Shown here one piece after another: positions 6,680-46,255 of a stretch of 64,000 bases of DNA (positions within the stretch are counted from its first letter, which is position 1; each line of letters begins with the position of its first letter). The notes under the pieces were generated by a model that saw nothing but the letters and a program-made list of their open reading frames with translations, did not search any database and was not told the DNA's origin. This DNA comes from Pseudomonadota bacterium (GTDB lineage Bacteria; Pseudomonadota; Gammaproteobacteria; Pseudomonadales; Pseudohongiellaceae). The position numbers and the translations under genes are program-made. The stretch lies in the NCBI GenBank assembly GCA_027623555.1, contig JAQBSZ010000006.1:62001-126000 (forward strand), written 5' to 3'.

Positions 6680-7642
6680 ATGGAATTTAAAGACTATTAC
6701 GACATCCTTGGTGTCGATACCAACGCCGATAAGTCTGCCATCAAGAAAGCCTATCGCAGGCTTGCTCGCAAATTTCACCCGGATGTTAGCACTGAGAAAG
6801 ACGCCGAAAATAATTTCAAGGAAGTCTCCGAGGCTTACGAGGTGCTGGGCAATGATGAACGGCGCACCGAATATGACGAGCTGAGAAAATACGGTCGCAA
6901 GGGGGAGTCATTCACGCCACCTCCTGGCTGGAAAGGTCACACTCAGGGCGATTTCGATACTCGCAATGGCGATTTCTCAGATTTCTTCGCCAACCTGTTC
7001 GGTGGAGGTTTTGCTGAACGCTCGCGCAGCAGCCGGGGCTTCGACAGCAGCGAGGATTTCTACTCCTCCCGAGGACAGGACATAGAAATTGACCTGCCGG
7101 TTTTCCTCGAAGAAACTATGCGGGATGATAGAAAGACCATCGAGTACAGGCTGCCGAAGTATGAAGCACAAGGACCGGCAAAAGAAATCCGCAAAACCCT
7201 GAAAGTCAAAATCCCCAAGGGCGTGCAGGATGGCGAGCGAATCCGGCTCAAGGGTCAGGGCGGCCCCGGTTTTGGCCAGGGCGCGGACGGTGACCTTTAC
7301 CTTCGTATCAAGCTGGTTCCTCACCCACTTTTCGACGCAGTGGGCCACGACCTGCACCTTACCCTGCCAATTGCGCCCTGGGAAGCCGCCCTTGGGATAA
7401 GTGTCGTGGTGCCAACCCTGGACTCGAAAATCAACCTGACCATACCCCCGCAGAGCCAGACCGGCCAACGCTTGCGCGTTAAGAACAACGGTCTCTACTC
7501 GCGCACTGGCAAGGGCGATCTGTACGTTATTCTCAAGGTGGTAATGCCGGAGAAAATGGATGGACAAACAAAACAACTCTGGCAACAACTCCAGCAGCAG
7601 GTCAAATTTGACCCTCGTCATGATTTAGGGAGCCAGACATGA
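6680..7642 (+). CDS. cbpA: Curved-DNA-binding DnaJ-family co-chaperone CbpA
   Basis: DnaJ homologue that stimulates DnaK and, in E. coli, binds curved DNA in stationary phase. The J domain occupies residues 1-70 with the HPD tripeptide (KFHPDVS). A Gly/Phe-rich linker (about 80-130) and two DnaJ C-terminal beta domains without the zinc-finger cysteines follow, which separates CbpA from DnaJ. The length is 320 residues. The stop overlaps the start of the cbpM-like gene, and CbpM is the specific inhibitor of CbpA. Confidence 0.95.
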   Translation: MEFKDYYDILGVDTNADKSAIKKAYRRLARKFHPDVSTEKDAENNFKEVSEAYEVLGNDERRTEYDELRKYGRKGESFTPPPGWKGHTQGDFDTRNGDFSDFFANLFGGGFAERSRSSRGFDSSEDFYSSRGQDIEIDLPVFLEETMRDDRKTIEYRLPKYEAQGPAKEIRKTLKVKIPKGVQDGERIRLKGQGGPGFGQGADGDLYLRIKLVPHPLFDAVGHDLHLTLPIAPWEAALGISVVVPTLDSKINLTIPPQSQTGQRLRVKNNGLYSRTGKGDLYVILKVVMPEKMDGQTKQLWQQLQQQVKFDPRHDLGSQT

Positions 7643-7941
7643 GCAATCAACGCATCCTGATTCCTCTGCGGGAACTCTGTGAAGAGTTGGAATTGTCGCG
7701 TGAAGCCTGCGTCGAGTTGGTGGAACAGGGCATTATCAATCCCCCAGGCGACGAACCGGAACGCTGGACCTTCGATATCACCATGGTGAGCGTGGTCCGT
7801 CGTGCCGTGCGCTTGCGGCAAGACCTGGACCTGGATTGGTCCACAGTGGCCCTGGTGGTTAGCCTTTTGGAAGAACGGGATCAGCTACGCACAGAGATCC
7901 AGGTCCTGCAGCAACGCCTGGATCGCTTTCTGGAACCGTGA
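7639..7941 (+). CDS. cbpM: Chaperone modulator CbpM
   Basis: Small MerR-like helical protein that in E. coli binds the CbpA J domain and blocks its co-chaperone activity. It has 100 residues with the typical order: an N-terminal winged-helix-like part (LRELCEELELS), the FDITMVSVVRRAVRLRQDL helix and a C-terminal coiled coil (LLEERDQLRTEIQVLQQRL). The ATGA overlap with cbpA shows translational coupling. This is the last chromosomal gene before the integrative element. Confidence 0.93.
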   Translation: MSNQRILIPLRELCEELELSREACVELVEQGIINPPGDEPERWTFDITMVSVVRRAVRLRQDLDLDWSTVALVVSLLEERDQLRTEIQVLQQRLDRFLEP

Positions 7942-8163
7942 ATCTTGACAAATACCACCAGAATCGCCAAAATTCGCGGCCTTTCGGCAATCACCAGAAT
8001 CCCGCGAAGAAAGATGAAACTACTGAATTGAGGGATTCAAATGTGCTGTAGATTGGGATTCTTCCTTCAATTTTACAAGCAGGCGTGGATGGATTACGTT
8101 ACTGCTGAAATCGAAGAGAAAATTCGCAGATACAGAAAATTTGGAAGCCGGGTCAAGAACAAT

Positions 8164-8240
8164 GGCAATGTAGCTCAGCTGGTTAGAGCACAGCATTCAT
8201 AATGCTGGGGTCGGTGGTTCAAGTCCACCCATTGCTACCA
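8164..8240 (+). tRNA. tRNA-Met (CAT anticodon), elongator type; integration target
   Basis: A 77-base cloverleaf with D-arm TAGCTCAGCTGGTTAGAGCA, anticodon loop TTCATAA, T-arm GGTTCAAGTCC and an encoded CCA. The GAGCACA...TGGGGTC context fits elongator tRNA-Met better than tRNA-Ile2, which also carries CAT. The first acceptor pair is G1-U72 instead of G-C. The integrase stop codon begins 7 bases after the CCA. This is the typical picture of an element inserted at the tRNA 3' end, which may also have rewritten that end. Confidence 0.95.
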
Positions 8241-8246
8241 TATAAA

Positions 8247-9323
8247 TCAAAGGCTTACGTGGTTTTCAGGTGTGTAGGCCTTTTTTATTGTGCCCGATTT
8301 TGTACCCTCAACAAGGCACAATGGTACACGTTCACTCGGCCCAGACAAACTGTCGGCATAAGCCATTAAGTGACTTGCCGACAAGTGCGCATACTTTCGC
8401 ACCATGGAAGCATCTGACCAACCACCTAACTCCTGCAAAACATGTAATGGAGTTCCTTGCTGAATATGCCAACTGGCCCAAGTGTGCCTTAAATCGTGCC
8501 ATCGAAAATTCTCAATGCCGACACGCTTTAATGCTTTACGCCAAGCATGGTTATTTGCCCTTGCCACTGGCTTACCTTGATAGGTAAAAACATAAGTGGG
8601 ACAAACACCCTCTTGACGCCTTAGTACCGCTAACGCAGTCTCATTCAAAGGAACTGCAATAGCCTTTTTCCCTTTCGCTTCATCAGCATGTATCCAAGCA
8701 CAGCTTCGAGCCATATCCACTTCAGACCATTTCAACTGAGTGACATTGTTCTGTCGTAACCCCGTTGCAAGACTAAAGCGCATCATCTCAGCTAAATGAA
8801 TCGGTAAGCTCGCCAACAACCTATCAGCCTCCTCCCTCTTCAACCAGCGTACTCGACGTTTCTCTACTGGTAGAAAACGAATATAAGGCACTCTTTCTAA
8901 CCAGCCCCATTCCCTTTCTGCACACCGCAATACGGCGCGCACCAGTGCTAAATGCCGGTTCACTGTGCCTGCTGTTACCCCTGTTGCTAACTTAGCTTGT
9001 GTAACAGCCGCAATGCGTTCTCGGTCTACCTCTTTGAGCAAACAATTGCCCAAATGCGGATGTAACCATCTGAATAAAAATACGTCTTTATCCAAAGAGC
9101 GCTTGCAGCCTTTCTTCTCAGACATCCAACGCACCACTGCTTCTTGCCACGTACTGGACGGTTTACACCCAAGATGCACAACCCGCCAAGCTTCTGACTT
9201 TAATTGGTCGTGAAATTCTTGAGCAGATCGTCTTTCGGACGTTTTAGCAGATCGGCGTATGTGCTGTCCGTTGGGGGTCGTAAATTTGACCCACCAGATG
9301 TTGCCGCGTTTATAAAGTGACAT
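8247..9323 (-). CDS. Tyrosine recombinase/integrase (tRNA-targeting)
   Basis: Site-specific recombinase that would integrate and excise the element at the adjacent tRNA-Met. The N-terminal MSLYKRGNIWWVKF start is followed by an Arm/SAM-like domain (about 60-150) and a catalytic domain (about 160-330). The catalytic residues are visible: Arg in FSLATGLRQNNVT, His-x-x-Arg in FRWHDLRHTWASWH, His/Trp in LGGWSD and the nucleophile Tyr in SMVRKYAHLS. The length of 358 residues is normal. Its C-terminus points at the tRNA, as in many phage-like and island integrases. The 5' end overlaps the HTH gene upstream by 124 bp in another frame. Confidence 0.95.
   Translation of the reverse strand: MSLYKRGNIWWVKFTTPNGQHIRRSAKTSERRSAQEFHDQLKSEAWRVVHLGCKPSSTWQEAVVRWMSEKKGCKRSLDKDVFLFRWLHPHLGNCLLKEVDRERIAAVTQAKLATGVTAGTVNRHLALVRAVLRCAEREWGWLERVPYIRFLPVEKRRVRWLKREEADRLLASLPIHLAEMMRFSLATGLRQNNVTQLKWSEVDMARSCAWIHADEAKGKKAIAVPLNETALAVLRRQEGVCPTYVFTYQGKPVARANNHAWRKALKRVGIENFRWHDLRHTWASWHIQQGTPLHVLQELGGWSDASMVRKYAHLSASHLMAYADSLSGPSERVPLCLVEGTKSGTIKKAYTPENHVSL
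8249..8286 (+). terminator. Rho-independent terminator after tRNA-Met
   Basis: A ten-pair stem, AAAGGCTTAC with GTAGGCCTTT (one G-T pair, arms 8249-8258 and 8274-8283), runs into six T on the + strand. It terminates the tRNA transcript and lies inside the last codons of the convergent integrase gene. Confidence 0.75.
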
Positions 9324-9550
9324 GGAATACCCTCCTTATCACCATACGGCGCCTGCACCTGTGTAGGATACAAAGACTGTAAATAAAGTACAAGATCAGA
9401 TCTAAGAAATACCCAGCGCTTCCCTGGCTTGGCACCTTTAACTTGTCCAAGACAAGCTCTCTGCCTTAAAACAGCAGGTGACATATGAAGGAATTTAGCG
9501 GCTTGATTTAAGTCGAAAGTTGAATCTTGAAGGGAGTCCATATTTTCCAT
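9200..9550 (-). CDS. HTH (excisionase/MerR-like) DNA-binding protein
   Basis: A 116-residue protein with an N-terminal helix-turn-helix of the excisionase/AlpA type (FDLNQAAKFLHMSPAVLRQRA, then GKRWVFLRSDLVLYLQS), about residues 12-60. The last 40 residues are read from the same DNA as the integrase N-terminus in a different frame. It is probably the directionality factor or integrase regulator, inferred from its position just upstream of and overlapping int. The start may be the second Met (residue 4). No strong Shine-Dalgarno site is seen. Confidence 0.75.
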   Translation of the reverse strand: MENMDSLQDSTFDLNQAAKFLHMSPAVLRQRACLGQVKGAKPGKRWVFLRSDLVLYLQSLYPTQVQAPYGDKEGIPCHFINAATSGGSNLRPPTDSTYADLLKRPKDDLLKNFTTN

Positions 9551-9735
9551 AGGTTATGCCGTGGTGAATGTGTTCCACAATAAATCTATAGAATTTTTTG
9601 GTAAGTTTTTACTACAAACTTTCCGGATGGCAAAGTAAGTTTTTCTTGAAATTATAATCATCTACTATGGCGAGGAATTGAACTTCCGCTGCTATCTTTG
9701 TTAACTGGCATGCAAAACTGAACAGGTTAGCAGGG

Positions 9736-9878
9736 TAATTGGCGTTGAAAACTGATCACCGATTATGTTTTTTTACCAGGTTCAAATGGCCTTATAACTT
9801 ACGTGTTGTAAGTAGACATTGAATCGCAAAGTGGTCAGTTGTAGGCGCCAATAGGTGATCAGTTCTTGACGCCAATTA
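9736..9878. mobile_element. MITE-like element with IS21-type termini, 143 bp
   Basis: The stretch starts TAATTGGCGTTGAAAACTGA and ends with the inverted copy ending CGCCAATTA. The outer 25 bases pair with about three mismatches. There is no ORF inside. An internal second copy of the right-end motif (GGTCAGTT...GGCGCCAAT) recalls the multiple terminal repeats of IS21-family elements. It lies in the 440-bp gap (9551-9990) between the HTH gene and the GHKL ATPase gene. I saw nothing else in that gap. The IS21 link is by end-sequence style and is not proven. Confidence 0.6.
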
Positions 9879-9990
9879 ACAGCTTAAGAATGTATGGTGC
9901 GTCATCTGGCCTCAATCCATTCGATCAGTGCAAACTACGAAACCACCGAGACTAAGAAAGATAGCAAATTTGTTCATTTCGCGAAAAATA

Positions 9991-11562
9991 CTAAGGAAGT
10001 CTGACTAGGATTTGTTCTATCAAACGTCGCGCAACCACACGATTAGCTGAACATTCACAAATAAGATCAAAAACATTTTGGTAAATTTGACGTTTCTGCC
10101 TTGAGTAGGAACTAAGCGGATCGTGTGTCTCGCTTGCAGTATTCCCTGAATTCGCTATTTTGGAAATTCCATCTACTTTTTTTAACAGCTTGGATTGATC
10201 TTTAGTATTAAGGTTTTCGCTGTTTGCGACTGCAGACATTTTGTCCATCGATACTGAATTTGACTTGATAAGCTCATCTTTGTATTTCTTGGAAATAGCC
10301 CCTTGCTTAAGAACATCCAGATTCACTCGAACCCTTTCCTCTTCCAACTCGAACTCTTTGATTTTATTTCGAACCGCTGAATTTTGCCGACATATTCGTG
10401 CGATGTTTCTGCCATAGGTCGCAATCTTGCCTATAAAGTCAGCATACCTTGCATTAACTTCAAAATCGTCTCTGCGACCCGTAGGAACTAGCTGTCGATT
10501 TACGATGTGCAATTCCCCAACAGACCAAGAATTAAATCTCGGTTCAGGAAATGCTTCTGTGAGTAGGTTACTCTGACCGATCTGAATATTCCCTTCTCTA
10601 ACCCTTAATCCCCTGATCAATTGCGAGGACGGAATTACCCCAAGATAGGAATGATGCAATATCCAACCTACGGCGGCGACGCCTCCGTGCATTCCTTCTA
10701 CCTCTACAAGTTCCAATCGCTTGAATTTATCACTCACTGAATCGGAAAGACTGAATTGATCCCTATAGGGTCGATATACAGTTCGCTCTTCACCACAATT
10801 TTCTACACATATTTCATAGGCGCTATAAACATTATTTTCTTTTAGAAATTCCTCTATCTCGCTCCCAAATTTAAATCCGGGATCAAATGGAACGGGCGCA
10901 TGCTGCGAAAGATAATCATAGACTTCTTCTTCATTCAACAACATGTCGTTTTTGTATCTGACAACACCTCTAAGCTCTACTTCGAAATAATGATCAGTCT
11001 TGAGCGCCGCCTCATCAAACGATACCTCGGCAATCTCATTCAGAAAAGATTTTAGGTCGCCCTCATAGTCACGATCAGCGACCAATTTCTTAAATTGAAC
11101 ACCATCCCACTTAATCTCTGATATCGTATTCTCAGCTGAACAAGAAGTTCTGAATATTAGCTCTCGACAATATGAAAGCCCAGCGAAGCGACCGACACCC
11201 CGAAACCCTCTAGCCTCTGTATCAACCTTTTGGCTAGCTCCAACCGAAACCATAGCACGTTCAAATTTCTGTGCGCCTATTCCGATGCCGTTATCACGTA
11301 TAACTATACTTCGATTGTCTCGGTCTATGGTCAGCCTGATTTGAGCGTTCTTTGCTTTATATTTCCCCTTTCTAGATGCCTCATCTATTGCATCCACTGC
11401 GTTCTGAATATATTCACGAACCATCGACATTGGGTCGACGTACATTCCCCCCGAAATAAGCTCCAGTATGTCTTTTCCAATAACCATAGATGAAACATCT
11501 GGCTTCTGAGTCTTTCTTGAACTGACAATTCGTGAATCCGCCGCGATTACTTGGGAGTCCAC
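9991..11562 (-). CDS. GHKL (HSP90-like) ATPase, last gene of candidate defence operon
   Basis: A 523-residue protein with an N-terminal Bergerat-fold ATPase. The N-box MVREYIQNAVDAIDEA has the catalytic Glu at 50 and Asn at 54, the G1 box is DNGIGIG at 90-96, and the G2 box is GFRGVGRFAGL at 119-129. The middle region (about 280-380) resembles the HSP90/MutL second domain. The C-terminal third is helical and low-complexity. It overlaps the stop of the radical SAM gene upstream and ends the seven-gene operon. HSP90-like ATPases of this type occur in several defence operons, where ATP-driven clamp closure is proposed. The precise role here is unknown. Confidence 0.85.
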   Translation of the reverse strand: MDSQVIAADSRIVSSRKTQKPDVSSMVIGKDILELISGGMYVDPMSMVREYIQNAVDAIDEASRKGKYKAKNAQIRLTIDRDNRSIVIRDNGIGIGAQKFERAMVSVGASQKVDTEARGFRGVGRFAGLSYCRELIFRTSCSAENTISEIKWDGVQFKKLVADRDYEGDLKSFLNEIAEVSFDEAALKTDHYFEVELRGVVRYKNDMLLNEEEVYDYLSQHAPVPFDPGFKFGSEIEEFLKENNVYSAYEICVENCGEERTVYRPYRDQFSLSDSVSDKFKRLELVEVEGMHGGVAAVGWILHHSYLGVIPSSQLIRGLRVREGNIQIGQSNLLTEAFPEPRFNSWSVGELHIVNRQLVPTGRRDDFEVNARYADFIGKIATYGRNIARICRQNSAVRNKIKEFELEEERVRVNLDVLKQGAISKKYKDELIKSNSVSMDKMSAVANSENLNTKDQSKLLKKVDGISKIANSGNTASETHDPLSSYSRQKRQIYQNVFDLICECSANRVVARRLIEQILVRLP

Positions 11563-13133
11563 TATGCCACCTCCAAACCGGCGTCTTCCACCTTTTCATC
11601 TGCAGGGACAACGAATTCTAGGATCTTAGTTCGCGCACGGTTGGCAGCTTGCTTATCCCAGATTTGTTTCTCTTCTTTCTGATCTAGATGATAGAAATAA
11701 GGTAGAATTTTTTTCAGCTTATTGTTCTTTGTCGCTTTCACTGCAGAGGGGTATTGCTTAGGAAAGCGCGCAGACAATAATTCTACTAACTCTGACCGTT
11801 CATCATCATTCAATTTAGCGTATTCCGCATTATATTGATCAAACTCCGCCCTGCCGCCCAGCTCGTCGTACCAAGAACGATTAAAAATGAATTTGTGTGG
11901 CAAATTGAGAAGATTCACAAACTCTTCTTCACTATCACCGAATGCTCTTCGAAAATATTCAGGCGCGCCACTGACAATTCCGTGTGTTGCCTGCAGGATT
12001 AGCTGCATAGACCTCAATATATAGCGATTCCATTTCACGCCTATATGAGATCTGTCTTTAAGATCAACGGGTTGATAGCGCATTGGAAAAGAGAATATCC
12101 GTATGCCTAACTCTTCGTTGAGATGAATATTTAGCTTCATCCTCTCGTATAGGTCTTCCGGTGAATCATGGAAATTATAGAGCATATAATTAGAAAGGTT
12201 GTGGAGGCCTGCTTCTGCAGAATACCTAATGGCAGTCTCATATGGTTTTCTTAATCCCGCATGATCAAAGGCAATCCTTAGTGGGCTTATACAAATCGTA
12301 CTCATCTCTTTTAGGTACATCGGGTCTTTGCAAAGAATTCTGGCATCAACTCCTTGATTAAAATCCACCCTCCTTTGATAGATTTTTCCATTTCTCTCAA
12401 GCGTAGCTCCTTTCTCAAATCCGAGGCCCCTTATTTCAGCCATGATTTCTTTATACTTTCCGGATGCGACTACATTGTTGTCCATCAGAACCAAGTCTTT
12501 CTTTGGACCATACCGGCGCTCGATGTCATTAACTACCTGACTAATTGAGTCAGTATCTCGCTGTTTGCCCTCTAATTTTGGCACACCACAAAATTTGCAA
12601 CTCCTCACGCAGCCTCGTGAAGCGTAGGTAAAATATGCATCTGTTACTGAGTATTCATAATCTGTCTGATCTAATATGGAATAATCAGGGGTCAGAAATT
12701 CGATTGGAGTACTTTGAAAGTCATCCGAATACAGCTCTTCAGCGAAATCATCTAACTGCAGCGATACAGCTGGCGCTTTGTCTAGCAGGCCTTGAATAAA
12801 TCTAATTCCTCTCCATGATGGCTCAGCTTTATACGCCTCATTCATAAGTGAGGCAGCAATGCCGCCTACGAATATACGGCTCGAGTTACCGTTCGCCACC
12901 TTTAGTGCAAAATTGATTGCGTCAGCCGTTTTTTTCCATTCGAATGAAAACAATGAGGTGATATATATTCTGTCCCATGCCTCATTTAGAACCGACCCAT
13001 CCTCACCCTTAATGAACTTTACCAGATCCTTTTTCCCCAACTCGCCATGGTACTGTGCGATTTTCATCAGGCCGAGGGGCGGGTACTTATTTTTGTAACC
13101 TGGTTCTATCAATAGTATTTTTCGATTAGCCAT
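11562..13133 (-). CDS. Radical SAM protein with B12-binding-like N-terminal domain
   Basis: A 523-residue enzyme. The N-terminal 150 residues look like a cobalamin-binding-type Rossmann domain (LLIEPGYKNKYPPLGL start, FVGGIAASL loop) but lack a clear DxHxxG B12 ligand motif. The radical SAM core starts with the 4Fe-4S motif C175-VRS-C179-KF-C182, followed by DNN and Gly-rich strands. About 200 C-terminal residues are unassigned. Such enzymes cleave SAM to a 5'-deoxyadenosyl radical for methylation, sulfur insertion or rearrangement. It is encoded between a DGQHR-type and a GHKL gene with 1-bp junctions, so it probably acts on nucleic acid or on a partner of the system. That last step is inference. 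Confidence 0.85.
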   Translation of the reverse strand: MANRKILLIEPGYKNKYPPLGLMKIAQYHGELGKKDLVKFIKGEDGSVLNEAWDRIYITSLFSFEWKKTADAINFALKVANGNSSRIFVGGIAASLMNEAYKAEPSWRGIRFIQGLLDKAPAVSLQLDDFAEELYSDDFQSTPIEFLTPDYSILDQTDYEYSVTDAYFTYASRGCVRSCKFCGVPKLEGKQRDTDSISQVVNDIERRYGPKKDLVLMDNNVVASGKYKEIMAEIRGLGFEKGATLERNGKIYQRRVDFNQGVDARILCKDPMYLKEMSTICISPLRIAFDHAGLRKPYETAIRYSAEAGLHNLSNYMLYNFHDSPEDLYERMKLNIHLNEELGIRIFSFPMRYQPVDLKDRSHIGVKWNRYILRSMQLILQATHGIVSGAPEYFRRAFGDSEEEFVNLLNLPHKFIFNRSWYDELGGRAEFDQYNAEYAKLNDDERSELVELLSARFPKQYPSAVKATKNNKLKKILPYFYHLDQKEEKQIWDKQAANRARTKILEFVVPADEKVEDAGLEVA

Positions 13134-13134
13134 T

Positions 13135-14157
13135 TTAAACCACTTTAAGTTTCGCTTTGCTTCTGAATTTTCTTAGTTGCTCGACTGCCTCTGCAACGCC
13201 TGCTTCCCCTCCGAGACCTTTCAGGGTACCGCTCGAACTCCAATCAAATGCGGGCATGAAATCAGACAATTTCCCTGCAAAGTATCTTTCCCACGAATCA
13301 ACACCACTCCTGCTTCCTTCGACATACAAATCCGCTGCTACTGACATTAGACTGTATACGCCAATGCCTTTGTTAATCATATGTTTTCTTGGATCAGACC
13401 ACTCTTTGCTAACCACCTCCGCCACACATTGCCAAAAACATCTAACTATCTCGTAAACATCATTTACTTCTCTATCCTCCAATGCTGACGTCTCTTTCAG
13501 AAATCTCTTAACAGCCTTTTGCATAGTTCTAAGGGATGCTCTTCGCTTAACTCCAATTGTTTGTTTCCCCCCCAAATTTAACTGCTTATACCAAGGAGAC
13601 AGCTCGTCCTCTGTAAGTTTAATACTGATCACTAGTTCCGGCCTGATATTCTCGATATCTTTAACTAGTTTCGCTTCATGGAAATCTAATAAGCTGCTAC
13701 TTAAGCCCTTGGCCTTACCATTTATTGTATTGAATACTCTCATTTCCTCTTGTTGAGATAATCCAACAAAAGCCATAAATGGAAAGTCTATTGACAAATC
13801 TGACAGAAATCCCAGCCTGTGCTGGCAATCAACTTGATACATTATGTTCTTTACATCCAAATTTACGGCTAACTTATCCCCGCTTTTTGAAGACGTGATT
13901 GTCCATGCATCATCTTTTCTGGGACGCAAATTGAATGTCAGCGGAATAGTTGCAGCACCGGGCTGCTGAATAAACTTTCTGAAATCAAGACTGTGCTTAT
14001 TGTTTATGGGTCTCTGGTAACCCTTACCTGTTGATTCGTCCAGAACATCAGCAATACTGATTGCACTTAGCAAACTGGAACTTGCAAAGCCGATGAAGAC
14101 CTCCCTGCCACCGCTGAGACCGAGTTTTCCGTGAATATTAGCGAAATTGTTAGACAT
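13135..14157 (-). CDS. DGQHR-domain (DndB-like) protein
   Basis: A 340-residue protein of the DGQHR superfamily, related to DndB, the regulator of DNA phosphorothioation. The signature appears as V109-D-C-Q-H-R-L-G, with Cys replacing Gly (DCQHR at 110-114). The preceding YQRPINNKHSLDFRKF and following FNTINGKAKGL segments also match the family, which shares a ParB/Srx-like fold. It is the fifth gene of the operon, separated by 75 bp from the ParB-like gene upstream and 1 bp from the radical SAM gene downstream. It may bind or modify DNA. The DGQHR identity is firm to the eye; the function is inference. Confidence 0.85.
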   Translation of the reverse strand: MSNNFANIHGKLGLSGGREVFIGFASSSLLSAISIADVLDESTGKGYQRPINNKHSLDFRKFIQQPGAATIPLTFNLRPRKDDAWTITSSKSGDKLAVNLDVKNIMYQVDCQHRLGFLSDLSIDFPFMAFVGLSQQEEMRVFNTINGKAKGLSSSLLDFHEAKLVKDIENIRPELVISIKLTEDELSPWYKQLNLGGKQTIGVKRRASLRTMQKAVKRFLKETSALEDREVNDVYEIVRCFWQCVAEVVSKEWSDPRKHMINKGIGVYSLMSVAADLYVEGSRSGVDSWERYFAGKLSDFMPAFDWSSSGTLKGLGGEAGVAEAVEQLRKFRSKAKLKVV

Positions 14158-14232
14158 GATGCAGCCTTTTGATGCAAATATGCATCGAAATAATGCAGTT
14201 TTGTGTAGAAATTGTCAATGAATCAACGAAAA

Positions 14233-15231
14233 TTACTTGCCATATACCTGCTTCATCAAATTCTGGAGAAGAGTGATCGTCCTAGCCAATCGGTATTTGG
14301 CGTCCTGTTGTGGCTTTGCGTCAAGAGCATCAAATTCTGATTTCTTCATATCCTTTACTTGCTCGTGAATATTCTTTAACTGTACGACAAGGCTCTTGGT
14401 TTTGCCTTTGTCCTCCAAAGTCTCATACGCACCGGATAAGCTACTTTTGCCACTTACAAACTTCGTGAATTCCTTTGGATGATCACAAACAATCGGTAGC
14501 ATTTTGCGGAGTTCCTGAGCAGTTATTTCGCCTTTTCGTATTTCGTTGATTATCCTTTCATCCAGTTTAGGCTCTATCTTTCTTTTCGCCTTCGCCTTTT
14601 TGCTTGTCAAATAAACTTCGTAATAGCTGTATCGATTTGGCTTATCCTCACCGTGCTCAACCATTAAACTGTATGTGTCGAACATTTTCTGAGCAAGCTG
14701 GACAGAAATATTCATTTCATCCTTCAACTCACCCACTTTCCTACCTCCGTTTATCAATCTATAGATAACGCCTGCTTGCTCATAGGCCGACCATTTAGTC
14801 TTTCCCTCGATATGCTCCTGATTCAAATATGAGTAAATAAGGTCTTCATCGGTATCTGCCGGCAGAACCATGCACGAGAGCTTCGAAAATTCTTTAGGGT
14901 TTTTCTGGGCGAGATATCTGCATGCCGCGAGGCGGCTGTTTCCTTCGATCACTTCGAAACTAGAATCCAGAACAACTATGGGGTTCTGTATATTCCCATG
15001 ATGCCTAATTGCCCCAACCAATTTTTTGACATGCTCCAACGAAAGCAGCTCTAATTGAATCTCGTCTTGATCTAATGGTGTTGTTGATTGGTGAACTATA
15101 GAATAGATTCGCGGATTGTTCTCCCAGAATGTTAGATCCCCATGGCTTAGCAAGCCTCGCTTAATCGGGATTGATTTTCCTGAAATTGGAAGCACATCGT
15201 CACCGAAGCCTTTCGTTTTATTGCTCCACAT
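14233..15231 (-). CDS. ParB/Srx-fold N-terminal domain protein (second in operon)
   Basis: A 332-residue protein with a ParB N-terminal (ParB/sulfiredoxin-like) domain in residues 30-115: ENNPRIYS, then LVGAIRHHGNIQNPIVVLD and the nucleotide-binding VIEGNSRLAACRYL (93-106). A ParB-type HTH region probably follows (EQAGVIYRLINGGRKVGEL). The C-terminal half is Lys/Glu-rich and helical. No parA is nearby, so plasmid segregation is unlikely. ParB-fold proteins without ParA occur in DNA-modification and defence loci. It lies 9 bp downstream of the helicase gene in the operon. It shares domain order with the gene at 17136-18107 and may be a distant paralogue. Confidence 0.85.
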   Translation of the reverse strand: MWSNKTKGFGDDVLPISGKSIPIKRGLLSHGDLTFWENNPRIYSIVHQSTTPLDQDEIQLELLSLEHVKKLVGAIRHHGNIQNPIVVLDSSFEVIEGNSRLAACRYLAQKNPKEFSKLSCMVLPADTDEDLIYSYLNQEHIEGKTKWSAYEQAGVIYRLINGGRKVGELKDEMNISVQLAQKMFDTYSLMVEHGEDKPNRYSYYEVYLTSKKAKAKRKIEPKLDERIINEIRKGEITAQELRKMLPIVCDHPKEFTKFVSGKSSLSGAYETLEDKGKTKSLVVQLKNIHEQVKDMKKSEFDALDAKPQQDAKYRLARTITLLQNLMKQVYGK

Positions 15232-15240
15232 TATGATCTC

Positions 15241-16713
15241 CTATGGATGGCCTTCATCGTGGTCATTCAACACCCCATCTAGTATGTCACTAATATCAAT
15301 GCTGAGAACGTCCTGTAAGTCTGCATCATCAGTATCGCCCATTCCTACTTTTACAGCTGACGACTTGAGTGTAATCAAAGCGTCAATCCATTCATCAATA
15401 GAACCTGCCATCTGAATATTTGTAACATGACAAGTTTTTTCTTGCGAGATTCTGTGAATACGGTCCTGTGCCTGAAGGTAATCATCTAGGCTGAACGACC
15501 TATCAAAAAAGATAACATGATTCGCCACAGTTAGCGTCAAGCCTTCTTTGGCAGCCGCTGGAGTCGCAACTAGAACCTTACAGTCTCCATCATGTTTAAA
15601 CTTCTGTACAGAGCCATCTCTATCTGCGATAGCCATAGAGCCATTGATCTGCACAGCACCATACTCTTTGAAATAATTTGCTAGGTATCTACAGTTATCT
15701 ACAAATGAAGTCCAAATAATCACTTTCTCGTCTGCATTGACTATGCGATCAACAAGAGAGCGAGTTGCGGGAATTTTGCCGGGAGTTTCAGAATATGAAT
15801 CGTCGACTAATCTCGGGTTTGATGCTATTTGATTGAGTCTAAGCAACCTCTTCAATATTGCCTCCGAGTCATCAGTGACCAACTTACCGTCTTTTAACAG
15901 CTCTATCCTCAAATCTCTCTTCAACTTCGCGTACATGCGCTGTTGATTGCTTTCCCATTCTCCATATACAGTCTGATAAACCTTCCCTGGAAGCTCCAGT
16001 CCTGATCCTTCTTTGGTTTGGCGAAGAGCAAAAGAGGATATTCTGGGCATCACACTCTTCAACTCTGCAACAAATTTTTCTTTCGCATCTCTTTCAGGCA
16101 AATCCAAACTCGACTTAAATTCTTTGAAATCTATACCAAGAGCGTCTCCAAGGTCTAGAAAGTAAATCTGAGACCAAATGTCATATGGGCGATTTGCCAT
16201 CGGTGTGCCCGTCATGATTATTCTCTTTTTGAAACAGTGCGATAGCTTGAAAAATTCTTTAGTTAACCGAGATTCAGCGTTTTTTATCTTCTGAGACTCA
16301 TCAAGGATAATCGCCATGGACCGATGCATCGACAACGATTCGAATTTCTGAGACTCTAATGCAATCGCTTCATAGCTTGTAATATAGATGCGACACGAAC
16401 TGAACAGTGCTTTGTGATTTGCTGCTCGATCCGTAGATATAACTTTAGGCTTGAGGTGAGAATGAACATCAAACTCTTGCTGCCAATTTCGAATTAGCCC
16501 CTTCTTCGTTACAATGATTACTGTGTCAACAGTGTTTGACTTCAACCAGTCAAGTGCTAGGTCTATTGCTATCTTAGTCTTCCCTAAACCTTGCTCGAAG
16601 AATATCGCTGCATAGTCAAGATCAGCCACGGCATCTATAGCTTCTTGCTGAAATGGAAATGCGCTGGTTAATTTTCGCAAGTCCAAGTTGCTAACTTTCT
16701 TAAGCGTAGCCAA
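15241..16713 (-). CDS. SNF2-family DNA translocase/helicase
   Basis: A 490-residue superfamily 2 ATPase of the SWI2/SNF2 type. Walker A reads FEQGLGKTKIA (residues 39-49), motif II is ILDESQKIKN, and motif III is MTGTPMANRPYDIWSQ. The C-terminal RecA-like domain carries QAQDRIHRISQ (motif VI). It is compact, without accessory nuclease domains. SNF2 proteins translocate on double-stranded DNA and are the motors of several defence systems (for example DISARM and Dpd). Here it lies between two ParB-fold genes and next to a PD-(D/E)XK gene, which suggests a sensing or cleavage complex. Confidence 0.92.
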   Translation of the reverse strand: MATLKKVSNLDLRKLTSAFPFQQEAIDAVADLDYAAIFFEQGLGKTKIAIDLALDWLKSNTVDTVIIVTKKGLIRNWQQEFDVHSHLKPKVISTDRAANHKALFSSCRIYITSYEAIALESQKFESLSMHRSMAIILDESQKIKNAESRLTKEFFKLSHCFKKRIIMTGTPMANRPYDIWSQIYFLDLGDALGIDFKEFKSSLDLPERDAKEKFVAELKSVMPRISSFALRQTKEGSGLELPGKVYQTVYGEWESNQQRMYAKLKRDLRIELLKDGKLVTDDSEAILKRLLRLNQIASNPRLVDDSYSETPGKIPATRSLVDRIVNADEKVIIWTSFVDNCRYLANYFKEYGAVQINGSMAIADRDGSVQKFKHDGDCKVLVATPAAAKEGLTLTVANHVIFFDRSFSLDDYLQAQDRIHRISQEKTCHVTNIQMAGSIDEWIDALITLKSSAVKVGMGDTDDADLQDVLSIDISDILDGVLNDHDEGHP

Positions 16714-16728
16714 TCCCCCGCCCCCTCA

Positions 16729-17136
16729 TCATTGTAAGTTCTTGCTTATCACGTGCCATTTGGAAGTCAAAAATCCTTCTTGTAGCACTATGTTTTCAAG
16801 CAATATACACGATGTCTTTTCACTGCCTAGGGGCACAGCCAATACCAACTCCCCAAAATCTTGGGATTCGATGATGCGCAAATATTCGATCAGCTGATTG
16901 CGTGTATGTTCATTATGGATATCGTGCCGCGTCTTAGCCTCCCCGATATACCTGAATGTGTTATCAAGTCTCATCCATACTAGATCCGGCACAAATGTTC
17001 CTGTACTCGGAGGCCTGTTCCCAACTCGCGAATCTTGATTATCTATTAGCTCAATGAAGTTTGATCTATCCTCGTTCATGGAGCACCATGCACTAATTAG
17101 ATCAATCAGATTGTAGTGCTCTCTAGACTCACTCAT
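16729..17136 (-). CDS. Small PD-(D/E)XK nuclease-like protein
   Basis: A 135-residue protein whose middle carries a restriction-nuclease-like core: P50-D51 in FVPDLVWM, followed 15 residues later by E66-A-K68 in YIGEAKTRHD, then a helix (HTRNQLIEYLRIIE) and a strand (GELVLAVPLG). That order (PD...ExK, alpha, beta) fits the PD-(D/E)XK superfamily, probably as a DNA endonuclease. The start overlaps the ParB-like stop by one base and the stop lies 15 bp before the helicase gene. The assignment is by motif only; the fold has not been checked. Confidence 0.7.
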   Translation of the reverse strand: MSESREHYNLIDLISAWCSMNEDRSNFIELIDNQDSRVGNRPPSTGTFVPDLVWMRLDNTFRYIGEAKTRHDIHNEHTRNQLIEYLRIIESQDFGELVLAVPLGSEKTSCILLENIVLQEGFLTSKWHVISKNLQ

Positions 17137-18107
17137 TACTTAACAAGTTCATTATCGAAGAAATTCTGCATTGAGAAACAAGTGTCTTCAATGCATTGGA
17201 TCGCGTCTTCATCTTCTCTCAATCTCTTCATGTCTTCATACTGAATAATACGTATTTTTTCTTGAACTGCGTAACAAAGCTCTTCCAATGTAGCTTCGAG
17301 TAACTCCTTTACCAGTTCCGGCCTGTCTATAAAACTGATCGCCTTCTTAGCTCCTTCAGTTAGGAACACTTCTCTTGCTCTAGGGTTCTCTAACATCGCA
17401 GGCAGGTCTCTTACATATTCTTGCCTTGGTTCAAATTTCCCATCTACAACCCATTGTATGAAGTCTTTTTTGGTAAATCCCGCCCCTGAAATGGCCGCGC
17501 TAATTTTTGGCTTTTGTGCATTAAAGAACAGACTGAATTTGTGATCATCAAATTGGCCTTCAGGAATAGCGTTTCGATATTCTGTATTCATCTGCTGATA
17601 AGCAGCTATATTTCGCATAACGGTATGTTTATTGCCTCCGCAGAAATCGACTAGTTCGCCTGGAGGAATCTGTTCTTGTGTATAGAGTTCATACAAATAT
17701 TTGGCTTTGGCAAAGGGGGTCCAGTTTCTCACTCCGACTAAATGTGCTTGTAGCCTGATAGCGTGAACTTCTTCGTCGCTTAGATTGTCGTGAACCATTG
17801 CTGGTATGGCTTGCCAAATTTCATTGTTCGGTTCGTCTTCACAAAATTTCTTGTAGATTGCCAATCGAGTGTTCCCTTCAATAGTTGTAAACCTCTCCCC
17901 GTTTTTCTCAACTATTATAGGATTTATCAATCCTTTGTTAGATCTAATTGCCTGTTTAAGCTCTAGATAGGGAGCATCTCCAGGCTGAAGGGCGTCTCCT
18001 ATTAGTGAGTGATCCACATTGTCAAAATTCTCGAGGAGGGGTGAAATTCGCGGATTTGCAGAGTCATAGTCTACAAGGGTTATATCTAGTAGAGTGAGAG
18101 CAACCAT
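17136..18107 (-). CDS. ParB/Srx-fold protein, first gene of candidate defence operon
   Basis: A 323-residue protein beginning with a ParB N-terminal domain. It has YDSANPRIS (residues 14-22), then LKQAIRSNKGLINPIIVEKNG and the TTIEGNTRLAIYKKF motif (about 74-88) that corresponds to the GxxR nucleotide-binding loop. The middle part (LYELYTQEQIPPGELVDFCGGNKHTVMRN) looks like the ParB HTH. It opens the operon, whose promoter should lie in the 240-bp divergent spacer up to 18347. No parA partner is present. Role inferred: DNA recognition or NTP-dependent switching in the system. Confidence 0.85.
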   Translation of the reverse strand: MVALTLLDITLVDYDSANPRISPLLENFDNVDHSLIGDALQPGDAPYLELKQAIRSNKGLINPIIVEKNGERFTTIEGNTRLAIYKKFCEDEPNNEIWQAIPAMVHDNLSDEEVHAIRLQAHLVGVRNWTPFAKAKYLYELYTQEQIPPGELVDFCGGNKHTVMRNIAAYQQMNTEYRNAIPEGQFDDHKFSLFFNAQKPKISAAISGAGFTKKDFIQWVVDGKFEPRQEYVRDLPAMLENPRAREVFLTEGAKKAISFIDRPELVKELLEATLEELCYAVQEKIRIIQYEDMKRLREDEDAIQCIEDTCFSMQNFFDNELVK

Positions 18108-18347: not shown

Positions 18348-18971
18348 ATGGCTGAATCTTCAGATTTTATGTTGAAAGAATACGAGAATATCTCACAGGC
18401 GCACTTCAAGACGAACGAATCGATTGCCATATTCTTCAGATATTACCTACTGCTAATGGCTATACCCATAGCATTTTTAGGCACCTCTTGGGAGCAGGTC
18501 GAAGCGAAGGATGTGGTTAACATGGGTTCTGCTTTGGCGGCTATGAATGCGGCAATATTTGGTATTTTTGCGGTCATGGGATTATGCGTCATGTATTACG
18601 TGATTGGATTGCGGCTCGACGCTCTGCTTTATGCTAGGACGGTTAATGGCACTCGGAAATATTTTGCAGACCGCGGGAAAAATTCAAAAGACAAAATCGA
18701 TGATTTCTTAGTACTACCCACTAATATGAGTTCGCCAAAATTCACTGCCTCAAACGGATTTTTGGGACTAGTTTCATCGTTTACCATACTGGATAGTTGT
18801 TATGCTATTGCTGCCACCTTTTTCTTCAATGTTTCCAGCTATGAAAGTAGAAACTGGAATTTCGAGGGACAGTTCTTGGCATTACTATTCGCGATTCTAG
18901 TAGCCAGTGTAGTTCTACACATAGTTGCTTTCGAGTGCGCAAAAATTCGGATGAGTGAAACCTGGGATTAG
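18348..18971 (+). CDS. Four-TM membrane protein, unknown
   Basis: A 207-residue integral membrane protein I do not recognise. Hydrophobic segments lie at about residues 25-43 (YYLLLMAIPIAFLGTSW), 65-90, 140-160 and 175-200, giving four predicted helices. A soluble loop of about 45 residues (91-136) sits between helices 2 and 3. It is divergent from the candidate defence operon and lies upstream of the nuclease-helicase gene, so it may be an accessory or effector of either. Membrane proteins of this size often act as abortive-infection effectors, but nothing in the sequence proves it. Confidence 0.7.
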   Translation: MAESSDFMLKEYENISQAHFKTNESIAIFFRYYLLLMAIPIAFLGTSWEQVEAKDVVNMGSALAAMNAAIFGIFAVMGLCVMYYVIGLRLDALLYARTVNGTRKYFADRGKNSKDKIDDFLVLPTNMSSPKFTASNGFLGLVSSFTILDSCYAIAATFFFNVSSYESRNWNFEGQFLALLFAILVASVVLHIVAFECAKIRMSETWD

Positions 18972-19538
18972 CTGCTCCTTAAAAGTTTCGTTACCGAAAG
19001 TATCCCATACTTGTCCTAAGGATTCGGATGCCGCTTCTAGCGAGGTGTATATGCAATAATTAGTTTTGTTCCGCCGTCAAGCTTAGCATGTGAGGCCGCT
19101 AAAACATTTTCCAGCTTATTCTAGACTTTTTGAACACCGTAAAGGGTGTTGACTAGTTACCACGAAAATCCCTGTTAAGCCAATTCTACGCGGCAACTGC
19201 ACTTTCCCAGGACGTAAAAGCACGCAGCCGGGAGTATCGTTGATTTACTGTTGATACTAACCAACAAAAGGAGGACAAGTTTATTTTCTGACCGCGAATT
19301 ATTTAGCTAGAAAACATGTCAAACCACTTTAATTCCCGTAAGAATCACCAGTCGACTACAACTGTAGTGGCATAGTTAGAATTGCATAATAGTTGGAGTC
19401 TATATACGAACATAGACTACGCAAACCATTCCCAGGATTAAAGGGCGAAAACCGTGTTAACCTGCGAGCTCTGCGCCCGAAGAAGTTGGCAAAAGACATA
19501 GGAATTCACAGGTATAAGAAATAGAGAATTTGCAGGAT
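18972..19538. other. 567-bp intergenic stretch, no gene recognised
   Basis: No ORF of convincing length or codon use was found on either strand. The only structure noted is a weak hairpin (AACACC-N6-GGTGTT near 19132-19150) not followed by a T-run. The 5' control region of the nuclease-helicase gene should lie here. Confidence 0.5.
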
Positions 19539-22500
19539 ATGAAGGTTTCAAACAAACAAGTTGTACTCAGCGCTTCTGATCTCGTCGGGTACCTCAATTG
19601 TAATCATTTGAGTGCGCTCGATCTTGATGTTGTACATGGGCATCGTGAAAAACCAGAACATTACGACCCGCTTTTAGAGCTTCTGAGGGAAAGAGGAAAT
19701 CAACACGAGCAAGCCTATTTGGAGCATCTTCAAAAAGGTGGGTTTCAATATGTATGCATTGACGGTGTTGATATCTCCGATGCCAGTGTAAACGCGACGA
19801 CAGATGCGATGAAAAGCGGTTGCCAGATTATTGTGCAAGCCGCTTTTCGGGCAGGTAGCTTTGTTGGACGAGCAGATATCTTGCGGCGGATAGAGAGATC
19901 CAGCAATCTCGGTGATTGGTCTTATGAAATTATCGACACGAAGCTTTCTCGGGAAACCAAGGGCGGGAGCGTATTGCAGCTTTGTCTCTACGCCGATTTA
20001 CTTTCTGAAGTTCAAGGGTTTGCGCCAGAGCATATCTACATTGTTGCACCTTGGTCTGATTATGAGCCTCAAGCGTTCAGATTTAATGACTATGCGGCCT
20101 ACTACAGGAAAGTAAAAGCTCAAGCTCTTGATGCTCTCGTTAGTGAGGGCATAGGAGAAACTTACCCTGAGCCTAAATCACATTGTGACATCTGCCGATG
20201 GAGAAACGACTGCGATTTAAGACGTCGTAATGACGATCATCTGTGCCTTGTTGCCAACATCTCGAAAAACCAAATTTCTGAGCTGAAAGTAAACGGTATT
20301 GCAAACGTTAAAGCACTCGCCGAACTGCCTGAAGTTATGCCTTTTACACCGCAAAAAGGATCTGTTCTTACCTATGAGAAATCAAGAGATCAAGCGAATG
20401 TTCAAGTTCGAGCCCGAGAGACCGGCGAACTTACATACGATATAAAACAAATTGTACCAAAAGTAGGGTTCTCGGCGTTGCCAGAACCTTCGATAGGGGA
20501 TGTGTTTTTTGATATTGAGAGCGACCCCTTTGTCGGTGAGCATGGCCTTGAATACCTATTAGGTTATTCCTATTTCGAAAATGAGAAACATATTTATAGC
20601 AGCCTTTGGGGGTTTGAGCGCGCTGAAGAGAAAGCGATATTCGAGCGGCTTATTGACGACATCACGGCAAGACGTGAAATATATCCAGATATGCATATTT
20701 ACCATTTCGCACCATATGAACCTGCTGCGCTAAAGCGCCTTATGGGGCGATATGCCACAAGGGAAGATGAGGTTGATAATCTCCTGCGCGGCGAGGTGTT
20801 CGTTGATCTTCTTAGTGCTGTACGAAACGCAATGTATGCAGGGGTTGAGAGTTATTCCATCAAAAAATTGGAACCGTTTTTTGGCTTTCAACGAAAGGTC
20901 GTATTGCATGATGCCAATGTTGCGCTTACCAAATTGACGTCTTGTATCGAACTCAATGATACTAAACTTATTGATGATGCCACCAAAAAAGTTGTTGAAG
21001 GATATAACGCGGACGACTGTTTTGCGACGCATGCCCTTAGAGATTGGCTTGAAACTTTGAGGCGCGACCTCATTGCAGAAGGGCACGAAATACCAAGGCC
21101 GCCTATACCAGAACCAACCCCCCTAGAAGACCTCAATGAAAGAGCTAAAAAGGTCCTGGCCCTTATTGGAAAGCTCACTCAGGATGTGCCCGTAGATCGG
21201 GTGGAGCGGTCTGAAGAGCAGCACGCACGATGGTTGCTTGCCTACCTTCTTGACTGGCATCGACGTGAAGAAAAGGCTGTTTGGTGGGAGTTTTTTAGGC
21301 TTAGAGATCTGACGCCGGATGATCTTGTATCTGAAAAAGCAGCTATTTCAAGGCTTTCTTTTTTGGAAACGGTTGAGAGCACAAAGTCAGGTATTCCAAT
21401 AGACAGATACGCATTCGAGCAGCAAGACACCGACGTCAAGGAAGGCGACAAACTCATTCAAAATGGCGGAGATACCTTTGGTACTGCTGAAGCTATTTGC
21501 AAAGATAGTCGTACGATTGACATCAAAAAATCTAAGAAAACAAAAGGCATGCATCCTGAAGCGGTTTATTCGCATCTGTTTATTCGTACTAACGAGCAAG
21601 CAAATTCAATAATGCGTATTGCTGGATATGTTGCTGAAACTGGAATTGAAGGCTCGGGAGATTATATTTCAGCGCGTGAATTACTGCTGAGAAAACTTCC
21701 CGAGATATCTGATAATTCCATGAACGAGGAAGGTGAAACTATTCTACAATCCGCCTTAAGGGTTGCTAAAAATATTAGCTCTGGTGTATTGCCAATGCAA
21801 GGGCCGCCAGGTACAGGGAAGTCTTATACGGGCGCAAGAATGATCTGCGCTCTTGTAAAGCAAGGGAAAAAAGTTGGCATCACGGCAAATAGTCACAAAG
21901 TGATCAGAAACCTTATAGATAAAGTGATTGAGGCTGCAATCGAAGATGGCACCAACATCAATATAATTCAAAAGCCGAAAGATAAGGTGCCAGATCAAAA
22001 TAGTCTGGTGTTTGCAAAAACTAATGAGGAGGTTTTTACCGCTCTTTCTTCTGGCACGGCACAAGTTGCTGGAGGCACACATTTTCTTTGGAGTAGAGCG
22101 GAAGCAGCGAGTACGCTAGATGTTCTTTTTATTGATGAAGCTGCACAGATGTCATTGGCAAATGTTCTAGCAGTTTGTCCGGCAGCAACGTCGGTTATTT
22201 TATTAGGTGATCCTCAACAGCTAGATCAACCGACACAGGGATCTCACCCAGACGGGACAGGAGTTTCATCTTTAGATCACATTCTCGGGGGTGCCCAGAC
22301 AATCAGCCCAGAGCAAGGGTTATTCTTGAAAGACACTTGGAGACTTAGTCCTGATATTTGCGCATTTAATTCCGAGCTATTTTATGATTCAAAACTGTCT
22401 TCCGTAGCCGGATGCGATAAGCAGATAATTCTATCTGAAAGTACTTTTGTAGGCGCTGGATTGCGATATTGTCCTGTAGATCATTCAGGTAACACCAGTT

Positions 22501-25796: not shown

Positions 25797-26032
25797 ATCA
25801 AAATATTCAAAATGTTGCTCTGTAATAGTTCTTTGTCTGAGGATTATTGAGTGTGTCTGTCAATTATCTATCGAGCAATTTTCCAACTCGTTATAACATC
25901 CATAAACAATCGAAATTCCTTTCGCTAAAGGCAGTCTTGTTATCCATAAACATTCCTGAGTCCTGGGAAAGTTTACCGTCTCTTTCTTTGATCGATTACC
26001 TCATCTTCGTGCCATCACTTTGGAGGTCGATG

Positions 26033-46181: not shown

Positions 46182-46255
46182 TAAACCCTTTCGGGAACAC
46201 AGTTTGTTCCCATAGGGGCTTGTCGTGTTCCTCTATCACAATACTGGAGCACAAC

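Follow-up and report, generated by a model that had tools for sequence, protein, structure and literature searches.

Seven adjacent genes in a 64,000-nucleotide stretch of DNA from a bacterium of the phylum Pseudomonadota (contig JAQBSZ010000006.1, positions 62,001 to 126,000; hereafter the window, to whose numbering the positions of its features refer) raise the question of whether they constitute one fixed system, and what such a system might do. The seven open reading frames (ORFs) all lie on the minus strand at positions 9991-18107 and encode, in order, a ParB-type protein (ParB1), a predicted PD-(D/E)XK nuclease, an SNF2 motor, a second ParB-type protein (ParB2), a DGQHR protein, a radical SAM enzyme (rSAM) and a GHKL ATPase. 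A first-pass annotation had described them as a closely packed operon and a candidate defence or DNA-modification system; the ORF coordinates bear out the single strand and the extent, and recomputation from the 5' gene onward returns the junctions given there (-1, 15, 9, 75, 1 and -1 bp). Comparison with related loci shows that the set is not one fixed unit: rSAM and the GHKL protein are near-constant, and the short DGQHR protein and the four-gene cassette made up of ParB1, nuclease, SNF2 and ParB2 are accessory and exchangeable. The radical SAM enzyme, previously regarded as the odd member, is instead the most conserved one and the centre of the system, which makes the finding more interesting than first stated.

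A near-constant pair and its exchangeable arms

Related loci were drawn from plasmids, genomes and viral contigs. We scored 33 of them with profiles, and 32 carry the rSAM family of the window, the remaining one (L122) having a different rSAM-like gene. SNF2, the PIN protein, the long DGQHR protein, the HerA/NurA-like proteins and the PD-Lambda-5_A-type protein (PDL5A) were represented by single-sequence profiles, and these were identified by position from BLAST. From viral contigs, 80 of 96 rSAM relatives gave 79 loci, of which 14 (L019-L032) were tallied and the other 65 (L033-L097) left out; L121 and L122 were recruited through ParB1 and not through rSAM. Nine of the 12 plasmid rSAM records described below were taken in (H6, H9 and H10 were left out), and L103, which is nearly the same as L005, is counted within the 32.

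The recurrence of the gene set elsewhere, on which the first-pass annotation had staked its proposal beforehand, was observed: the full seven-gene order is found in five other loci, four on plasmids of Alphaproteobacteria (L001, L100, L101 and L102) and one on a viral contig (L025). The idea of a seven-gene system holds to the extent that the whole set recurs, and fails in that the set is not fixed. GHKL adjoins rSAM in 29 of the 32 loci, the short DGQHR protein is present in 13, always immediately upstream of rSAM, and the ParB1-nuclease-SNF2-ParB2 cassette is present in 16 (divergent in L004 and L023, and with L121 among the 16). HerA/NurA-like pairs, whose names are based on weak PADLOC matches, depositors' names and BLAST, occur in six loci; a PIN protein occurs in eight, with a second GHKL protein in seven of these; a long DGQHR-HEPN protein, whose HEPN part scores below its cut-off, occurs in four; and a PD-Lambda-5_A-type protein occurs in two. 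On the L003 plasmid a PIN-GHKL pair is encoded elsewhere on the same plasmid. Directly upstream of a distant rSAM, L028 encodes a PD-Lambda-5_A-family protein (8361-11614, PADLOC E 8.4e-72) and L030 a weaker relative (8251-11620), and in L113, which is Marinitoga camini virus 1, rSAM lies beside proteins named HerA and single-strand exonuclease by the depositors.

Several loci show further features. The gene run NurA-like, HerA-like, GHKL, rSAM is found in L104, L105, L029, L031 and L111, with a second GHKL gene following in L104 and L105, and is common to a human faecal phage record (L111), two viral contigs and two genomes of the window's phylum. The core of L005 and L103 (Agrobacterium S7/73 and Rhizobium AB2/73) is followed by two large proteins of 598 and 753 amino acids, the latter with a weak GTPase match, and on the viral contig of L021 the operon is flanked (8919-16613) by genes for a helicase-like protein with partial similarity to DpdE, DrmD and BrxH, and for a GajB-like UvrD helicase. 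ParB2 of L007 (4930-5955) and GHKL of L106 (8570-10009) are each split into two separate ORFs and look broken or mis-sequenced. Novosphingobium aromaticivorans DSM 12444 carries a locus on its plasmid pNL1, and Rhizobium leguminosarum WSM1325 likewise has one on a plasmid.

We compared 12 pairs of loci, and percent identities are given for six of them in the order ParB1/nuclease/SNF2/ParB2/DGQHR/rSAM/GHKL. In five pairs rSAM stays close while the cassette runs from similar to wholly different: 82/72/80/77/73/97/74 for L100-L102, 42/39/58/46/73/97/78 for L100-L101, 41/37/59/47/77/98/86 for L101-L102, 47/34/51/47/none/90/88 for L020-L021, and 34/24/47/none/53/83/65 for the window and L007. In the sixth pair, L001-L100 (92/75/86/87/87/90/63), cassette and rSAM are equally close. 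Because rSAM is 97-98% identical between loci whose cassette proteins are only 37-59% identical, the cassette is exchanged as a block: sequence and gene context show its four genes keeping together and being swapped jointly, with little change in rSAM.

A tree of 29 rSAM proteins, which leaves out L026, L103, L106 and L122, gives a related picture. Over 27 labelled rows and four arm types, the arm type changes at least seven times, a count that stands alone with no shuffled-label comparison behind it, or 11 times if strand arrangement is counted. L113, L121 and L027 sit on long branches, where false joins are possible. Loci with the ParB cassette and loci with the long DGQHR protein are neighbours in two 100/100 groups (L020/L021 with L108, and L001/L100-L102 with L005), and both groups are free of these long-branch rows.

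Co-occurrence was assessed in 72,556 plasmid records, of which the rSAM query matched 17, including 12 with an identity of at least 60%; the GHKL query matched exactly those 12 and no other. These stand for fewer events than 12, because at least three pairs are duplicate or near-identical records by their names and scores. The PIN query matched 14 plasmid records, namely all 12 and two others, and the ParB1 query matched eight, seven of them among the 12, the eighth being a match at 43% coverage to a partition protein. In viral contigs the ParB1 query recovered eight loci, seven of which carry rSAM and GHKL genes of the window's type. The eighth, L122, has a cassette without the usual pair, and a very different rSAM-like gene (7631-8989), which has a CxxxCxxC motif and is without a Pfam match, overlaps the start of its ParB1 gene. 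The PIN query found no relative in viral contigs and no match in the window's own genome, the latter being a weak test since plasmid relatives are as low as 24% identical. A PD-Lambda-5_A query of phages and plasmids gave only partial matches, with no rSAM annotated alongside (L117 is unannotated).

These counts bear on the possibility that the rSAM-GHKL pair and the cassette are independent systems that merely lie side by side in a loose defence island. The cassette is encoded on the opposite strand in six of its 16 loci, as such an island would allow, and in the window a promoter-like site (TTGACA-17-CATTAT, minus strand, 14190..14218) falls in the 75-bp gap between the two modules; this is a weak pattern match only, and the region holds 10 such sites against a shuffle mean of 21.3, i.e. 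no better than chance. However, the cassette lies upstream of rSAM on the same strand in the other 10 loci, adjoins an rSAM-like gene in all eight viral contigs, and is matched through ParB1 in eight plasmid records of which seven hold rSAM. We regard independent neighbours as quite unlikely.

Among genomes, the rSAM query matched nine in a sample of 274, where only the window's own genome scored high and the other eight were partial matches of 17.8-23.8 bits. It matched four of 398 genomes (the window's own, G333, G426 and a fragment in G550), two of 48 (G333 and G426 again), three of 58 (the window's own, G668 and G674) and one of 385 (the G550 fragment again). A scan of genome contigs with a single-protein query returned at least one locus.

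Proteins of the core and the cassette

The radical SAM enzyme (11562..13133, 523 amino acids) combines a B12-binding-like Rossmann domain, a radical SAM barrel and a helical C-terminus. Its match to PF04055 (E 0.0013, score 19.3) is below the cut-off of 29.5; the motif CxxxCxxC is present in 32 of 32 aligned rows and Foldseek gives a probability of 1.00 to rSAM structures, so that the protein has both the cluster motif and the barrel of the superfamily. Only C175, C179 and C182 are invariant; C268 is found in 25 and C281 in 24 of the 32 rows, and no further cysteine column is conserved in at least 30% of them. In the methylthiotransferases MiaB and RimO, three additional cysteines of the N-terminal domain serve an auxiliary cluster; lacking these, the window enzyme does not qualify as one of that type. 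The two-domain fold is shared with B12-fold rSAM enzymes (AprD4, MgmA and TsrM) and with MiaB, at an identity of only about 13-15%, and none of these named top matches modifies DNA. The family is large, with at least 7,998 matches, and among the 120 matches listed identity to the window protein is 64-91%.

The 65 viral contigs left out of the tally carry short rSAM ORFs, mostly of about 300 amino acids, which match part of the query; these contigs have no GHKL match, and weak SNF2-like matches in seven. The short ORFs of L035, L039 and L048, the three tested, match phrog_9298, as does the window rSAM (5.6e-39), and it is possible that they are a phage-borne version of the same chemistry.

Prokaryotic viperins are antiviral radical SAM enzymes, according to part of the text of PMC12926258, and by analogy the window enzyme could make a diffusible antiviral nucleotide, with the remaining genes being separate defence cargo. 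We consider this most improbable.

The GHKL ATPase (9991..11562, 523 amino acids; PF13589, E 2.4e-11) belongs to the Hsp90/MORC type: it has the N-box, the DxGxG motif, a glycine-rich lid, and N-terminal and middle domains. N-box and GFRGxGR lid are invariant in 22 aligned rows, three of which represent GHKL proteins of alternative arms; some distant rows have alanine in place of the middle glycine of DxGxG. The earlier suggestion that this protein is an ATP switch is plausible in light of its Hsp90-type fold. The DndB/DpdB-like DGQHR protein (13135..14157, 340 amino acids) matches TIGR03187 with E 1.4e-33 and 116.8 bits against a cut-off of 58.85, and QVDCQHRLG is invariant in 11 aligned sequences including that of the window.

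Within the cassette, ParB1 (17136..18107, 323 amino acids), the first gene, has a putative ParB-type N-terminal domain whose match to PF02195 (E 0.0016) is below the cut-off; NPR and EGNTR are invariant in 12 aligned sequences including that of the window, and its profile matches Noc structures (E 5e-4). ParB2 (14233..15231, 332 amino acids), the last gene, likewise stays below the PF02195 cut-off (E 0.025); EGNSRLAA is invariant in 11 aligned sequences including that of the window, and its profile found no ParB match among structures. The predicted nuclease (16729..17136, 135 amino acids) has no match in Pfam, PADLOC or NCBIfam and no profile match of worth in the PDB. Its assignment comes from the alignment, where P50 D51, G65 E66 A67 K68 and Q81 are invariant in 12 of 12 sequences including that of the window, a pattern that agrees with the PD-(D/E)XK motif. 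The SNF2-family motor (15241..16713, 490 amino acids) matches PF00176 (E 2.7e-31) and PF00271 (4.3e-19), as well as the Snf2/Rad54-family structure 1z63 (E 2.4e-42). The family names of the first-pass annotation are supported, by profile for SNF2, DGQHR and GHKL and by invariant motifs for ParB1, ParB2, rSAM and the nuclease. The rSAM, GHKL and nuclease proteins all retain their key motifs.

A putative DNA mark and its readers

We favour, with about even confidence, a defence resembling modification-restriction, in which rSAM and GHKL would mark host DNA and an exchangeable cassette would cut unmarked DNA. The rSAM enzyme, paired with the Hsp90-like ATPase, would chemically mark the DNA of its own host, the presumed substrate. 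The DGQHR protein may bring the enzyme to DNA, because DndB and DpdB belong to host-DNA modification systems. The GHKL protein may be an ATP-gated clamp linking sensing with action, the SNF2 protein would move the nuclease along DNA, and the two ParB-type proteins would read the mark or its absence. The predicted task of the cassette is to seek out and cleave DNA that lacks the mark. HerA/NurA-like pairs, the PIN protein with a second GHKL, and the DGQHR-HEPN protein would serve that mark as other killing arms. We infer the mark, its chemistry, the polarity of the scheme and its anti-phage effect from sequence and gene context.

Several lines of evidence are consistent with a mark on host DNA. 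These include the near-constant rSAM-GHKL pair, the exchange of the cassette as a block, the changes of arm type on the rSAM tree and the presence of an rSAM-like gene beside the cassette; the DNA-processing proteins of the commonest arms (SNF2, PD-(D/E)XK and HerA/NurA-like); the relationship of the DGQHR protein to DndB and DpdB; and the mobile, defence-associated setting, in which the island also carries genes for F-type conjugation and an AbiE pair, and relatives of the locus are found on plasmids and in viral contigs.

Other observations weigh against it. DNA as the rSAM substrate, a modified base and protection from phages are themselves inferred. Three loci of the rSAM family (L028, L030 and L113) are without GHKL, and no killing arm is seen in four of the 32 (L022, L026, L032 and L106), of which L022, L026 and L106 reach the contig end. 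The short DGQHR protein is unseen in 19 of 32 loci (the region upstream of rSAM is not covered in L026 and L106), and therefore it cannot be a general targeting subunit. Restriction-modification usually shows an asymmetry, a solitary modifier being viable and a solitary nuclease not; among the loci found there is neither a cassette without an rSAM-like gene nor a surely solitary rSAM-GHKL pair. In ordinary restriction-modification the specificity of the modifying enzyme would also change along with that of the nuclease. Because rSAM is nearly invariant while DGQHR and cassette diverge, the fit to such systems is poorer, and this pattern points to a single chemical product that many arms read and not to a sequence-specific partner for each nuclease. 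In addition, the locus sample is small and biased towards plasmids and viral contigs, because few of the sampled genomes carry the family.

The strongest rival reverses the polarity: rSAM would mark invading DNA, and the cassette would cut the DNA so marked. The same anatomy and block exchange apply to it, and a nuclease that needs a mark would be expected beside an rSAM-like gene, as in the eight viral cassettes. Moreover, PD-lambda-5, the system whose A-family protein lies upstream of the L028 rSAM, was cloned in a host with the mrr region deleted, according to part of the text of PMC9519451. Nothing points to a means of recognising foreign DNA before it is marked, and the DGQHR relatives DndB and DpdB come from systems that modify host DNA. 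We consider marking of invading DNA unlikely.

The PIN and HEPN arms would also suit an RNA target. The rSAM enzyme might then modify transfer RNA or other RNA, with nucleases acting on RNA when the mark is missing. That only the cysteines C175, C179 and C182 are invariant, without those of MiaB and RimO, argues against this, as do the SNF2/HerA-like motors and PD-(D/E)XK/NurA-like nucleases of the commonest arms, which usually act on DNA, and we judge an RNA target very unlikely.

Extending the favoured reading of a mark on host DNA, we tentatively consider, with more doubt than confidence, that the loci belong to a widely distributed kind of modular immunity that has no name so far. In such a class, rSAM and its Hsp90-type partner would write a DNA mark of new chemistry, interchangeable arms (ParB-nuclease-SNF2, HerA-NurA, PIN-GHKL and DGQHR-HEPN) would read it, and stand-alone phage relatives (phrog_9298) would be the phages' own mark writers. 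If host DNA is indeed marked as in the favoured reading, radical SAM chemistry would be a further means, alongside methylation, phosphorothioation and 7-deazaguanine insertion, by which bacteria label self DNA, and a common core would accept different killing modules.

Named systems and genomic setting

Profile scans of the seven proteins against Pfam, NCBIfam 2026 and PADLOC 2023 found no named system with this set, in agreement with the first-pass annotation. We found no description of the gene set as a system in the open-licence literature that was searched, and a description elsewhere is possible. The resemblance to parts of Dnd-, Dpd- and DISARM-type loci that had been pointed out is supported by the same scans.

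Dnd/Ssp phosphorothioate systems have a DndB-type DGQHR protein in common with the operon, although the window protein scores 21 against the Pfam DndB model, below its cut-off of 29.1. In Dnd, a modification module is combined with different nucleases, according to part of the text of PMC10853773, a logic that resembles a core with exchangeable arms. The operon differs in that no DndA, DndC, DndD or DndE match was found among its seven proteins in Pfam, PADLOC or NCBIfam, and in having at its centre a radical SAM protein accompanied by an Hsp90-like ATPase; with no DndC, DndD or DndE match, it does not qualify as a phosphorothioation system. The DGQHR protein is a relative of DpdB as well (PADLOC E 1.8e-12, NCBIfam E 5e-13), and the SNF2 protein one of DpdE (PADLOC). 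Assignment to Dpd was rejected, as no TGT-like DpdA is present among the seven and the scores are 48.7 against a cut-off of 300 for DpdB and 40.6 against 500 for DpdE.

The A-family protein of PD-lambda-5 is tied to a distant rSAM in L028, and weakly in L030 (the system being that of Vassallo et al. 2022, PMC9519451). The window operon is not a PD-lambda-5 system: it has only partial PD-Lambda-5_A matches (ParB2, 3.4e-4; ParB1, 0.041), and there is no methyltransferase among its seven proteins. An SNF2-type motor is shared with ZorD of Zorya, DrmD of DISARM and the BREX helicases; the window protein is far below the NCBIfam cut-offs for ZorD (84.1 of 1500) and DrmD (61.5 of 950), and in PADLOC and NCBIfam none of the seven matched any further protein of Zorya, DISARM or BREX. 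The GHKL protein shows weak similarity to MzaB and Tiamat TmtA in PADLOC. Iyer et al. 2008 (PMC2292703, from part of its text) describe restriction-modification operons in which MutL/MORC-type GHKL ATPases lie close to nucleases and SWI2/SNF2 helicases, an arrangement common to those operons and the one described here. Unlike in the latter, there is no occurrence of 'radical SAM' or 'ParB' in the main text of PMC2292703.

The operon is AT-richer than its surroundings, as had been reported, with a G+C content of 41-44% across 10-18 kb of the window against 51-56% across 1-8 kb. It also lies, as described earlier, behind a tyrosine-recombinase integrase (8247-9323; PF00589, E 4.2e-35) beside a tRNA-Met gene (8164-8240). 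A small helix-turn-helix ORF (9200-9550) overlaps the integrase start, and the window contains no other exact repeat of the tRNA end of at least 15 bp.

On the other side, divergent from the operon, a gene on the plus strand (18348..18971) encodes a small membrane protein of 207 amino acids with hydrophobic segments. A homologue adjoins the cassette of the sister locus L007 (36% identity over 165 amino acids, E 1e-25), the sole one among the loci searched, and the protein may be an additional member of the system at these two related loci. A gene adjoining the operon encodes a fusion of a TM0106-family RecB-like nuclease with an AAA_11/AAA_12-type helicase (19530-22943; TIGR03491, 1.2e-76; PADLOC MkoA, 2.6e-37), and a second integrase-like gene follows at 25847-26899. 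F-type conjugation genes extend over 27-46 kb (TraC, 1.9e-69; TraG/D C-terminus, 3.9e-10), a RadC-like gene lies at 46220, and the same island holds an AbiEi/AbiEii pair (49750-51415; PF08843, 2.2e-33; PF11459, 2.1e-59; PADLOC AbiEii, 1.2e-119). TraC, TraG/D and the AbiEi/AbiEii pair further in give the region the look of an integrative conjugative element that carries defence cargo.

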